DNA of 37,311 nucleotides, taken from an uncultured Erysipelotrichaceae bacterium (lineage in GTDB: Bacteria > Bacillota_I > Bacilli_A > RFN20 > CAG-826). The stretch is from assembly GCA_902800355.1 (NCBI GenBank), contig CADCEE010000010.1:1-37311 (forward strand), given 5' to 3'. Every line of letters begins with the position of its first letter. Position 1 is the first letter of the stretch. The translations under genes were made by a program, and so were the position numbers. The notes below the pieces were generated by a model. It had not been told where the DNA came from, made no database searches, and saw only the letters and a program-made list of their open reading frames with translations. Below are positions 12,115-17,205 of the stretch, piece by piece.

Positions 12115-13362
12115 TTAGAGTCTAACGTCTTGAACTTTTCTTCCTGGTTTTGCGGTCTTTTTAAAGACAACTTCACCTTTAGAAATCGCTCCGACTGGAC
12201 AGACATGTCCGCATAAGAGACAGCCAACACATTTATCGTGGTTGCAGCTTGGTCTTCTAGATTCTTCATCCCACTCCATAGCTTGGTGAGCTCCGTCATA
12301 GCAAGATATATAGCAACGGCCACAACCAACACATTTCTCCTTATCGATTTCTGGGTAGACGATATAATCTCTATCGAGTTCTTCAGCAGGAATAATGTTC
12401 TTATTGGCTTTACCAACGAGTTGCTCTAAGTGATCAACATGTTGTTCTTCCATATAATGCATTAAGCCATTACATAAATCTTCAACGATTCTATAGCCAT
12501 ATTGCATAATTGCAGTTGTAACTTGAATAGTTTTAGAACCAACTAAAATGAATTCGGCAGCGTCTTCCCAAGTTTCACAACCTCCGATACCAGAGATTTC
12601 TAAGTTAGGAATCGCGGTTCTCATTTGTTGGATAAATCTTAAGGCCACTGGTTTAACTGCTTTTCCTGAATATCCTGAAATTGCGGATTTACCGTTAACA
12701 ATTGGCATACCGATTTTCTTATCTAAATCAATATTACATATTGACTTGATAGTGTTAATCGCGGCAATACCGTCCGCTCCACCTTCTAAACAGGCCTTAG
12801 CAACGGGCACCATATCAGTAATATTTGGTGTCATTTTTGCCATCATAGGGAGTTTAGATCCACGTTTAACAGCTTGACAGTACTTCTTACATAGTTCGGC
12901 GTTAGTACCAACGTCACTTCCCATCGCATGAGACGTCATTTGAGGACATGATAAGTTCATTTCAATCATGTCTGCGCCTGCTTCGGTAACTTTGCGAGCG
13001 AGGTCTTCCCAGCTCGCTTCATCATTACCCATAATCGAGGCAATTAATACTTGTTTAGGATATTCTTTCTTTAATCTTGCTAAGTCAGCAAGGTTTTCTT
13101 CAAGTGAATGTTCAGCGATTTGTTCCATGTTTTTGAAGCCCACAAATGGTTCAGCTTCTTTAGTTAATGTATCAAATCTTGGAGACACTTCATTAATGAC
13201 ATAGGATTTAGGTCCAATTGTCTTAAAGACAATTCCACCCCAACCACAGTCATAAGCTTTTTTACACATGTCATAATCATTTCCTACAGGAGAAGATGAT
13301 AAACAGAATGGGTTAGGGAATTTAACACCTAAGAAGGTAATACTTAAATCTTTCTTAACCAT
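12115..13362 (-). CDS. preA: NAD-dependent dihydropyrimidine dehydrogenase, catalytic subunit PreA
   Basis: 415 aa. An FMN-binding dihydroorotate-dehydrogenase-type barrel is followed by two C-terminal [4Fe-4S] motifs, [14 protein letters not shown] and [14 protein letters not shown]. The segment [17 protein letters not shown] carries the catalytic Cys, and [19 protein letters not shown] and [16 protein letters not shown] are nearly identical to E. coli PreA as I remember it. With PreT it reduces uracil and thymine to 5,6-dihydro forms with NADH, or the reverse. No dihydropyrimidinase or ureidopropionase gene is nearby. It starts 2 nt after preT, and its SD GGAGG lies within the last preT codons. 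Confidence 0.95.
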
Positions 13363-13364
13363 AA

Positions 13365-14573
13365 TTATTTACCTCCTAAATATTTTTTAACTTTATAGGC
13401 AACTTCTTTAGCAGATCTCACCGCATAAACAACAGTCTTTTCTCCGCCTTTATAGATATCACCACAGGTGAATAAGTTGCCTTCAACTTTTTCAACTTCT
13501 TGAAGTTTATTTACTTCTAAGCCAAATTCTCCAGCTTCAGTAGCTTGACCAACTGCAAGGATAATTAAATCGGCTTTAAATTTAAGTTCAGCAGGAACAT
13601 ATCTATGAGTAAATCTCACAGTCTTTCCTTTTAAGGAAACTGGGACATAACCATCGATAATAGAAACACCTTCTGCTTGAGCACCTTGAAGTTCTTTCTT
13701 AGAGGCTTTGAATTCTGCAAATGTTTCATAAACTACATCAGTCACTTGTTTAACGCCTAATAATTTAAGTGTAGTAACGACATCCATTGCAACATCGCCA
13801 CCACCAATAACTAAGACGTTTTCAGGGACTTTGACATTGCCTTTCTTTCTCTTGCATTCATGTAAGAAGTTAACAGCAGTCTTTACAAATCTATGACCTT
13901 CAAACATTGGTAGCATCTTTCCTTTAGAGTGACCAACTGCAAGAACAACCGCATCATATTCTTTTTGAAGTTTCTTTAAATCTTCTACTTTTGTAGATGT
14001 TCTAATTTCCACTCCTAATTTTTCAATGCGTTTAATCTCTTTATCAACCACTGCAGATGGTAAACGATATTCAGGCATACCGTATCTCATATATCCACCA
14101 GCTTTGGCTTCTTTTTCAAAGACAACGACTTTACAACCTTCTAACGCTAATAAGCCAGCAATAGATAATCCCGCAGGACCACTACCAACAACTGCGACTT
14201 TCTTACCATTAGATGGTTTCTTTTCTAAGATATCCATCTTCAGACATTCTTCATAGTCGGTGACAAATCTTTGAATTCTTCCGATATCAATTGGCTTATC
14301 AATGCCACTTCTAGAACAACCTAATTGACAATATCTTTCGGTTGGACAGACTCTAGCACAAATGGCGCCTAATATGTTATTGATACGAACTGTTTCGGCT
14401 GCGCCTTTAAAATTCTTGAAACGCACAGAACGAATAAATTTTGCTGGATCCGTTCCAGCAGGACAGGCTTTAGAACATGGAGCGTCATGACAAAGTAAAC
14501 AGCGTGATGCTTCTTCCATCACAAGTTTAGGTGTATATCCGGCTTCATATTCTTTTAAGTACTTTTCGGACAT
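13365..14573 (-). CDS. preT: NAD-dependent dihydropyrimidine dehydrogenase, electron-transfer subunit PreT
   Basis: 402 aa. The N-terminal Fe-S helical domain has [19 protein letters not shown] and [15 protein letters not shown]. Then come an FAD Rossmann motif ([13 protein letters not shown]), the E[15 protein letters not shown] segment, an NAD(H) motif ([11 protein letters not shown]) and the closing [17 protein letters not shown] motif. It belongs to the glutamate synthase beta-subunit-like family and feeds NADH electrons to PreA. SD AGGAGG is 5 nt upstream. A TAAAAT-type -10 about 40-50 nt upstream is possible, but I see no strong -35. Confidence 0.94.
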
Positions 14574-14678: not shown

Positions 14679-15215
14679 TTAATAACGAGAATCCCACTCG
14701 TCGATTATTCTTTGTCGATTAGCAATTTTCTTACCAAAAACCGCAGCGGAAACTATTAATAAGGCAATACCAGCGTCCGCTACTAATTCAAATAATGCTC
14801 CGAATAAGAAGTACATAATGGAGGTATTAGTGAAAAGATCACCACTAGTAGGCATTGCTCTAGCACCAAGATAAAAGAAAACAATTGTTAAAACTATACC
14901 AACAGCTAATAAGATAGAGCCAAGAGTAACCAGTGTAATTCTTTTACTTCTATATTCAGCAATCTCTTTTTTATATTGTTCAATAGTAGAAGAAGTTACT
15001 TTTTTATTTGATGTTGGACTAGAAGGAGTAATAACACTAGCTACACGTTCAACTGCGTCAACAGCTTTACCACACCTAGAACAATAAGTTGCATCAATTT
15101 CTACATTAGCCCCACAGTGAGGACATTTACGGTACTTCACGAGTTTAGTTCCGCAACTCTCACAATAAGTTGCCCCGTCTCCATATTCAGCATGACATAT
15201 TGGACATTTTTTCAT
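14679..15215 (-). CDS. Double zinc-ribbon membrane protein
   Basis: 178 aa. Two zinc ribbons lie at the N-terminus: CPIC...CESC (Cys4, 7, 18, 21) and CPHC...CSRC (Cys31, 34, 45, 48). A Ser/Pro/Thr-rich linker and a short charged helix follow, then two membrane segments (about 95-117 and 133-160) and a basic tail. Zinc ribbons joined to membrane helices are common in Firmicutes, but the function is unknown. It follows the glycosyltransferase fusion by 11 nt with a good SD (AGGAG), so it is probably co-transcribed with it. Confidence 0.85.
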   Translation of the reverse strand: MKKCPICHAEYGDGATYCESCGTKLVKYRKCPHCGANVEIDATYCSRCGKAVDAVERVASVITPSSPTSNKKVTSSTIEQYKKEIAEYRSKRITLVTLGSILLAVGIVLTIVFFYLGARAMPTSGDLFTNTSIMYFLFGALFELVADAGIALLIVSAAVFGKKIANRQRIIDEWDSRY

Positions 15216-15226
15216 ATTTTGTTCTC

Positions 15227-17170
15227 CTATTTGTCTGGATTTAATTCTTTATAAATGGCTTCTAACTGTTTTGCCCATTTATCACTAGAATAATTTTGCA
15301 TTGTCTTTTTAGCGTTTTTCACAATTGATCTCACATCACCAAATAACACCTTTTCAAGTCTAGAGACCCACTCAGTATAATTATGATAAATAAGAGCGTT
15401 TTCTCCATCAGTGAAAACTCCATCTAACGCTTTATCGGCTTTGGCTAATATTGGGGTCCCACATAAAGCGGCTTCAAAATAAGTTAAGCCTTGGGTTTCA
15501 AAGTTACTAGCGGTCACAAAAGCGTCGAATAAAGAATAGTAATATTTGAGCTTAGAATTCTCAATTTCCCCGACAAAAATGACGTTTTCTTCTAATTTTA
15601 GCCTTTTTGTGGCCTTTTTAAGCATTGGGATCGCATCCCCAACACCAACAATAATGAAGGCGATATTTGGCACCTCATGCTTGATTCTTGCGATATATTG
15701 AAGGGTCTCAACAATATTCTTTTCTAAGGAGACTCGACCAACATAACCAAGCACTTTCCTATTTCTTAATTTATAAGACTCTTTTAAGTTGTCGATGAGT
15801 TCTTTATCCATCTTTGAGATTTCAAATTTAGAAGCGTTAACTGGAGAAGGAATAATTCTAATATCCTTGTCCCCGATGTCCTTCTTTAATATTTCATAAC
15901 TCTTTTGAGATGGAACGGTGATAATCTTACATTCGTTATAGATACGTTGGAATATTAAACCTTTCGCGGTTTTATAAACAATGTTACCAAAATCTAAACC
16001 AAATTTATTCTGATAATATAAGTTCCACAAAGTGTGATAAGTATATAAAAGATTAATTCCTGTCATCTTTGCTAATTTTAAAGCGATAACCCCTGCAGAA
16101 TATTCTGTATGAAGATGAATATAATCAAAACCAAATAATGAAAGCATTTTAGCCGCTTTAGCGAACTGGAATGTTTTTAATATATGAAGTTCTTTATAAT
16201 TCCTTACTAACGAAAAATAAGTTGAAGGGATAGGAATATAAGTTTCATTAGGTAATTCTTTATATGATGTACCTTTATGCCATAACGCAGCAATATAAAC
16301 GTCATAGCCAAGTTTCTGTAACTCTAATTGGAGTAAATCCATAACAACAGCGACCCCACTCACAAATAAAGGACAAACATCAGTTAATAAAGCGATTCTT
16401 TTTTTATTAGGGATGCCGTCAATTTCATTAAATAATCTATTAAAGAAGTTATCATTTAAAATCGCTTCTTCTGGTAAAGCAGAATTCTTATATTTAGATT
16501 TCTTTCCCACTAAACGGTTATAGTGATGTTTCTTATAATACTCTTCTAATCTTAAGGATAATATGTCTTTATAAAATAAATAATGTCCACATACTGGATA
16601 AGAAGAAAATTTCACATTTGGATTTAGATGACCTTTTTCATAAATCTTATATCTAGTATCTAAAGAAATAACTTCGTCATTTTGACCAAAGTGAATAAAG
16701 GTAGGAATAGAAAACTTACTAATCTCATCACTTAATTCATATTCCGCCTTATAAGAATTAACTGGAGAAATTAAAATCATCCTATCGATATTTAAATCTG
16801 GATTCTTATGCGCTTTAGTGGCTAGATAGGCTCCTACACCAAAACCTAATAAGATTAATCTTTGATCTTTTCTAATCACTTTTTGAGAGAATAATTCATG
16901 AAGAATTCTTTCAAAGACATCGAAATAATATTCTAAATATAAAACACGGTCATTCTTTGTTAATAAATTAACAACAATAACTTGTTCTCCTCTATTTATG
17001 ATTGGAGCAAGTAAATCATAGTACTGTCTTTCTCCTTCAAAATGAAAAAGCGGAAAGACAACAATATCTTTCAAATTGTTCTTGCTATTATAGAAGCTCA
17101 CCTGATAAGGGTTATGATCTAATAAGATTTCGATTTGTCTACCCTTGAAGGCTGGTCGAGATTTCGCCAT
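15227..17170 (-). CDS. Fusion of an alpha/beta-hydrolase-like domain and a GT4 glycosyltransferase
   Basis: 647 aa from the ATG at 17170. Residues about 15-225 look like an alpha/beta hydrolase: the strand-elbow LLGFGVGAY, an Asp in FGQNDEV, and a His in CGHYLF. The elbow has Gly where the nucleophile Ser should be (GFGVG instead of G-x-S-x-G). Residues about 255-640 are a GT-B enzyme of family GT4 (LLTDVCPLFVSGVAVV, HLHTEYSAG, GYVGRVSLEKN, and the E-x7-E region in SNFETQGLTYFEA), closest in pattern to mollicute/bacilli diacylglycerol glucosyltransferases. A glycolipid role at the inner membrane face is likely but inferred. A TTG at 17188 is in frame, but a -10 box overlaps that codon, so the ATG is preferred. 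Downstream partner: the zinc-ribbon membrane protein. Confidence 0.85.
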   Translation of the reverse strand: MAKSRPAFKGRQIEILLDHNPYQVSFYNSKNNLKDIVVFPLFHFEGERQYYDLLAPIINRGEQVIVVNLLTKNDRVLYLEYYFDVFERILHELFSQKVIRKDQRLILLGFGVGAYLATKAHKNPDLNIDRMILISPVNSYKAEYELSDEISKFSIPTFIHFGQNDEVISLDTRYKIYEKGHLNPNVKFSSYPVCGHYLFYKDILSLRLEEYYKKHHYNRLVGKKSKYKNSALPEEAILNDNFFNRLFNEIDGIPNKKRIALLTDVCPLFVSGVAVVMDLLQLELQKLGYDVYIAALWHKGTSYKELPNETYIPIPSTYFSLVRNYKELHILKTFQFAKAAKMLSLFGFDYIHLHTEYSAGVIALKLAKMTGINLLYTYHTLWNLYYQNKFGLDFGNIVYKTAKGLIFQRIYNECKIITVPSQKSYEILKKDIGDKDIRIIPSPVNASKFEISKMDKELIDNLKESYKLRNRKVLGYVGRVSLEKNIVETLQYIARIKHEVPNIAFIIVGVGDAIPMLKKATKRLKLEENVIFVGEIENSKLKYYYSLFDAFVTASNFETQGLTYFEAALCGTPILAKADKALDGVFTDGENALIYHNYTEWVSRLEKVLFGDVRSIVKNAKKTMQNYSSDKWAKQLEAIYKELNPDK

Positions 17171-17176
17171 AAAATA

Positions 17177-17205
17177 ATTGTAACCCAAATTTACTTTTAT
17201 TTGAA
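17177..17205 (-). promoter_or_regulatory. Predicted leaderless promoter for the hydrolase-glycosyltransferase gene
   Basis: Minus sense: -35 TTCAAA (17200-17205), spacer of exactly 17 nt, -10 TACAAT (17177-17182), then 6 nt to the ATG at 17170. There is no SD. This is the best-formed of the five leaderless-type promoters in the window. Confidence 0.6.

Follow-up and report, generated by a model that had tools for sequence, protein, structure and literature searches.

The open reading frame at positions 15227–17170 of the window (the whole stretch of 37,311 nucleotides analysed, from contig CADCEE010000010.1 of an uncultured Erysipelotrichaceae bacterium) raises the question of what a hydrolase domain does at the N-terminal end of a glycosyltransferase when glycine occupies the position of its catalytic serine. 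The locus and its parts are as follows.

15227–17170, minus strand: fusion gene, pseudo-alpha/beta-hydrolase plus GT4 glycosyltransferase, 647 aa and stop codon, from the ATG at 17170 (coding span without the stop codon, window 15230–17170, minus strand)
16526–17140, minus strand: alpha/beta-hydrolase-fold domain, residues 11–215 (Pfam, AlphaFold2, Foldseek against the PDB)
16838–16840, minus strand: Gly111 codon GGT, nucleophile position of GFGVG (alignment)
16676–16678, minus strand: Asp165, catalytic-acid position, in FGQND (Asp in 18 of 18)
16583–16585, minus strand: His196, catalytic-His position, in CGHYLF (His in 16 of 18, Tyr in two)
16403–16525, minus strand: linker, residues 216–256 (evolves faster; model confidence low to about residue 236)
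15230–16402, minus strand: GT4 glycosyltransferase, MGS-like, residues 257–647 (Pfam Glyco_transf_4 and Glycos_transf_1; NF049988)
15473–15499, minus strand: GT4 E-x7-E motif, E558–E566 (ETQGLTYFE), invariant in the genus
15719–15736, minus strand: GT4 R-x4-K motif, R479–K484 (RVSLEK), K484 invariant and R479 nearly so
17177–17182, minus strand: TACAAT, a −10-like box just before the ATG (consensus match only; without a Shine-Dalgarno sequence)
14679–15215, minus strand: zinc-ribbon membrane protein, downstream (zinc ribbons by Pfam)

The genus of the window is represented here by 19 genomes (G000–G018), and a goat-rumen genome is among the close relatives of this genus of uncultured Bacilli. 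The fusion is found in 18 of the 19; 17 copies are full-length and one ends at a contig end. The sole genome without it, G018, is 69% complete and displays no MGS-family match whatever.

The N-terminal domain, when scanned alone against Pfam, matches Hydrolase_4 with 28.4 bits (cut-off 27) and Abhydrolase_2 with 25.3 bits (cut-off 23). An AlphaFold2 model of this domain, built from five close sequences, displays the canonical alpha/beta-hydrolase strand order with a mean pLDDT of 70 and a pTM of 0.74, the eight strands being at positions 11–17, 20–27, 35–41, 63–68, 104–110, 128–134, 157–162 and 186–193. The GFGVG elbow is located after strand 104–110 and Asp165 after strand 157–162. The position of His196 is taken from the alignment, since residues 194–236 are of low confidence in the model. 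A Foldseek search of the PDB gives 1260 matches at E-values up to 0.001 (best E-value = 4.5e-8), and the descriptions of the best 50 of these 1260 are overwhelmingly those of alpha/beta-hydrolase enzymes. Thus Pfam, the strand order of the predicted structure and Foldseek agree on the hydrolase fold that the original prediction had proposed for this region, for which it had suggested structure prediction as a check. In the model, linker residues 241–250 form a helix. The AlphaFold2 model of the full-length fusion has a pLDDT of 45, which is too low to read domain contacts. The domain resembles the Hydrolase_4, Abhydrolase_2 and DLH families (PF12146, PF02230 and PF01738) in fold, strand order, the Asp and mostly the His position. 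It differs from them in the Gly at the nucleophile position and in the attached glycosyltransferase, and there are about 22 residues between strands 128–134 and 157–162, hence no lid domain there.

The elbow has the context L-G-F-G-V-G-A, with Gly at residue 111, where a competent alpha/beta-hydrolase carries Ser, Cys or Asp. In the alignment no fusion protein of the genus departs from Gly at this position (18 of 18), the codon being GGT, GGA or GGC according to species. The N-terminal domains are 38%–88% identical among the full-length sequences of the genus and their dN/dS values are 0.07–0.22. Since Gly111 is invariant through synonymous codon change, it is maintained by selection and does not come from an error; sequencing error or recent inactivation is ruled out, as the residue occurs in 18 genomes, is spelled by three codons and lies in a domain under purifying selection. 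The elbow of one fusion protein (L009 of G010) is GFGVS, in which a Ser stands two residues past the Gly and off the nucleophile position.

Freestanding hydrolase homologues with an alignable elbow display Ser in 18 of 18 cases (GYSMG, GHSWG, GYSFS and similar). Loss of the Ser therefore most likely took place on the branch leading to the fusion. The replacement of G-x-S-x-G by GFGVG, which had been read from the one sequence together with a recognisable Asp and His and a proposed survey of the Gly/Ser position among relatives, thus extends to all the fusion proteins of the genus: Asp165 is kept throughout, and the only two exceptions to His196 are Tyr residues in G015 and G007.

Retention of the Asp and, in most members, the His would be expected if the domain were still an enzyme acting through another nucleophile or through Asp and His only, and there is an invariant Ser, Ser135, that might be considered for this part. 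Ser135 however is not at the elbow but comes behind the next strand, it lies in an ISP motif at which the Ser-bearing homologues have either Ala or Ser, and two species have Tyr in place of His196. Continued catalysis is accordingly very improbable, and the proposed loss of the nucleophile Ser is supported.

Conservation within the domain is highest at the rim of the former active site. The rim, defined as residues 39–45, 109–115, 135–141, 162–168 and 193–200, has a conservation of 3.46 bits in the genus versus 2.97 for the strands and 2.82 for all other residues, and 4 of 205 circular shifts of these sequences, which are related to each other, come as high as the rim. Because of this relatedness the conserved rim suggests only weakly that the pocket is retained in the genus. 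Gly at the catalytic position in every species argues that the domain is kept for a use other than cutting, and with the rim as its best conserved part, binding without cleavage is the most likely job.

Two related genera, represented by G033 and G121, have glycosyltransferases with about 200 extra N-terminal residues each. In a tree of the glycosyltransferase parts, which includes standalone MGS-like proteins and no experimentally characterised MGS, the 18 fusion sequences group together (support 98/100), and the fusion sequences with those of G033 and G121 are set apart from the standalone MGS by a branch with support 97/96. Within this set of sequences, the fusion glycosyltransferases adjoin the standalone MGS-like proteins. 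The G121 N-terminal domain is homologous to that of the fusion (hhalign E-value = 1.6e-5; hmmsearch 16.1 bits versus at most 6.1 bits in 468 scored shuffles). Its aligned elbow reads SFDKG, so that Asp occupies the position of the nucleophile, and the acid and His are lost. The G033 domain gives no significant direct profile match to that of the fusion (hhalign probability 0.4%; −0.9 bits) and its homology therefore rests on G121, which it matches with 40% identity from G033 residue 103. In the alignment via G121, its triad positions carry neither Ser nor the acid nor His. The simplest reading of these alignments is a single fusion event, after which the triad would have decayed, most completely outside the genus.

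Beyond the genus, no additional strong match to the N-terminal domain came from profile searches of 279 genomes of the order, 395 of the class and 392 of the phylum; the class and phylum samples contain only weak, short-frame matches there. Fusion-type proteins are present in at least two sister genera (G033 and G121) among the matches listed, and further decayed fusions may exist beyond them. The domain architecture, predicted to be a distinct one, is confined among these matches to one genus and two related genera with more decayed N-terminal domains. It is new as far as searched, and the part of the open-access literature on hydrolase-glycosyltransferase fusions that was covered holds no description of it. 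The principle of non-catalytic hydrolase-fold proteins is already known from NDRG (PMC7022630) and the neuroligins (PMC5943944), which likewise keep the hydrolase fold for a non-hydrolytic role. Those are animal proteins, unlike the bacterial, glycosyltransferase-attached domain described here, and the likeness drawn is one of fold and role.

The sister genera bear on the main rival explanation, that the N-terminal domain is a mere structural or oligomerisation scaffold for the glycosyltransferase, with the Asp and His as leftovers or fold-stabilising residues. Both G121 and G033 keep the domain though its triad is entirely lost, so that retention of a conserved pocket cannot account for the domain in every member. 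The N-terminal domain also evolves faster than the glycosyltransferase in the more distant pairs (dN 0.29–0.37 versus 0.13–0.14). Within the genus, however, it is the active-site rim that is most conserved, and both Asp165 and Gly111 are invariant. A scaffold is a tentative and rather unlikely explanation.

The glycosyltransferase part is a full-length GT4 sequence with the E-x7-E and R..K motifs. R479 is replaced by His in G004; the glycosyltransferase part of this protein (L020) also reads NHIS for GRVS and LSDY for HTEY, and may be altered. The best NCBIfam match of the fusion is NF049988 (alpha-monoglucosyldiacylglycerol synthase, MGS) with 164.7 bits over positions 2–387 of 398. The next is NF053513 (IagA/BgsA/LafB) with 80.2 bits, so that MGS is ahead by 84 bits. 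The resemblance to diacylglycerol glucosyltransferases that had been noted from the sequence is thereby upheld by family profiles. The score is below the curated NF049988 cut-off of 400 bits, as are those of standalone homologues from other genera (200–264 bits).

The fusion is the sole full-length MGS-type match of comparable strength within the genomes of the genus, where it stands in for the single standalone MGS-like protein of about 395 aa that most other genera of the family encode in a different operon. AlMGS, the enzyme to which NF049988 refers, is like AlDGS a GT4 enzyme with a GT-B fold; both are found at the cytosolic membrane face, and attachment by an amphipathic helix has been proposed for them (PMC6506492). 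The fusion is like AlMGS in its alignment along the model and in its intact GT4 motifs. Unlike AlMGS, it has about 250 additional N-terminal residues (pseudo-hydrolase and linker), scores 165 bits against the 400-bit cut-off, and has another gene neighbourhood. In addition, the RIPG..LYGYR stretch of standalone MGS, and what follows it, is replaced. The most cationic segment of 18 residues carries a lower charge in the fusion glycosyltransferase than in standalone MGS (+2.9 versus +4.1, from few independent lineages). Loss of a cationic membrane helix is, given so few lineages, a hint only; a lower charge would fit an N-terminal domain that takes over part of the docking.

The glycosyltransferase part is probably an MGS-type glycolipid synthase, as judged from family membership, with diacylglycerol as its putative acceptor. 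Counting against this reading are the score below the 400-bit cut-off and the lack of a strong match to the second enzyme of the pathway. IagA/BgsA/LafB-type second glycolipid glucosyltransferases belong to GT4 and to the same pathway type, and the fusion is unlike them in scoring 80 bits against their 460-bit cut-off. A strong match to this second enzyme is absent from the genomes of the genus by profile search, which yields only proteins of about 350 aa with 105–144 bits, versus about 400–500 bits in 11 relatives searched.

The fusion gene adjoins the ribosomal-protein/rpoA operon, and a conserved pair of oxidoreductase genes (window 12118–14573) is beside it in most species. Standalone MGS genes have a recurrent gene row in the eight loci compared, with an LPG_synthase_TM protein, a RecX-like protein and an HD/OB protein as neighbours (Pfam, two loci). 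The different neighbourhood fits relocation of an MGS-type gene together with the gain of a domain, with orthology taken from the tree rather than from synteny. In the neighbourhoods of relatives that were examined, no freestanding hydrolase was recognised beside MGS. The zinc-ribbon membrane protein, proposed earlier as a partner of the fusion, has a homologue at the downstream place in only 7 of 17 relatives, all within the window's own clade, and is rejected as a conserved partner. In one species (G002) an open reading frame of 481 aa of the OrfB_IS605/Cas12f1-like_TNB transposase family is found near the fusion gene (L085, 3341–4783). Three open reading frames elsewhere display adjoining matches to GT4 (MGS-like) and LPG_synthase_TM, i.e. 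G020:C17:12308-14524 (778 aa), G010:C1:83193-85301 (771 aa) and G032:C30:9103-11271 (763 aa). These look as if a GT4 sequence had been fused to a flippase-like membrane protein.

A terminator-like sequence, ACCTCATC...GGTGGGGTTTTT, is seen by eye between rplQ and the fusion gene. Most relatives show, also by eye, a TATAAT-like or A/T-rich box shortly upstream of the ATG and no evident Shine-Dalgarno sequence. The start at ATG 17170 is favoured because of this box, and a leaderless start conserved in the genus is possible.

Position outside the LPG_synthase_TM-MGS-recX-HD row, a score of only 165 of 400 bits with NF049988 and the replaced RIPG..LYGYR stretch would all be in keeping with a glycosyltransferase that acts on an acceptor other than diacylglycerol, one recognised by the hydrolase-fold domain. 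This is a doubtful alternative, as MGS is still the best family by a wide margin and the genus is without another MGS of comparable strength.

With an MGS-type synthase as the preferred reading, the fusion would work as follows. An alpha/beta-hydrolase domain would have been gained N-terminally by one gene fusion, in an ancestor common to the genus and the two related genera. The glycosyltransferase part would use UDP-glucose to glucosylate diacylglycerol on the cytosolic membrane face. The hydrolase domain, its nucleophile being Gly, would no longer cleave; as a folded module it would bind, without cutting, a partner protein or a small ligand such as an acyl lipid, and would so position or tune the monotopic synthase. 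On balance the evidence leans, by a little, to an MGS-type glycolipid synthase with a dead hydrolase module whose putative binding would position or tune the glycosyltransferase. The use of this non-catalytic module is best read as docking, ligand sensing or assembly. It is a more speculative and rather improbable proposal that a domain of former lipase type has become a fixed putative sensor, which would accommodate a lipid-linked signal, a diacylglycerol or an acyl chain in the former active site, leave it uncut and set the rate of glycolipid synthesis. In a lafB deletion strain of E. faecium, three independent evolved lines each acquired an alpha/beta hydrolase mutation (PMC12802148); this is a loose parallel to the fusion and not a test of it.

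The sister forms allow the fusion to be placed in a comparison series of Ser-bearing relatives, the Gly form and further decayed forms with Asp or no recognisable nucleophile. In bacteria with MGS-type enzymes, membrane curvature is tuned via glycolipid synthases, which respond to the surrounding lipids. With a dead lipase-type domain attached, such a synthase would offer a genetically clean example of an enzyme fold reused for binding or control.
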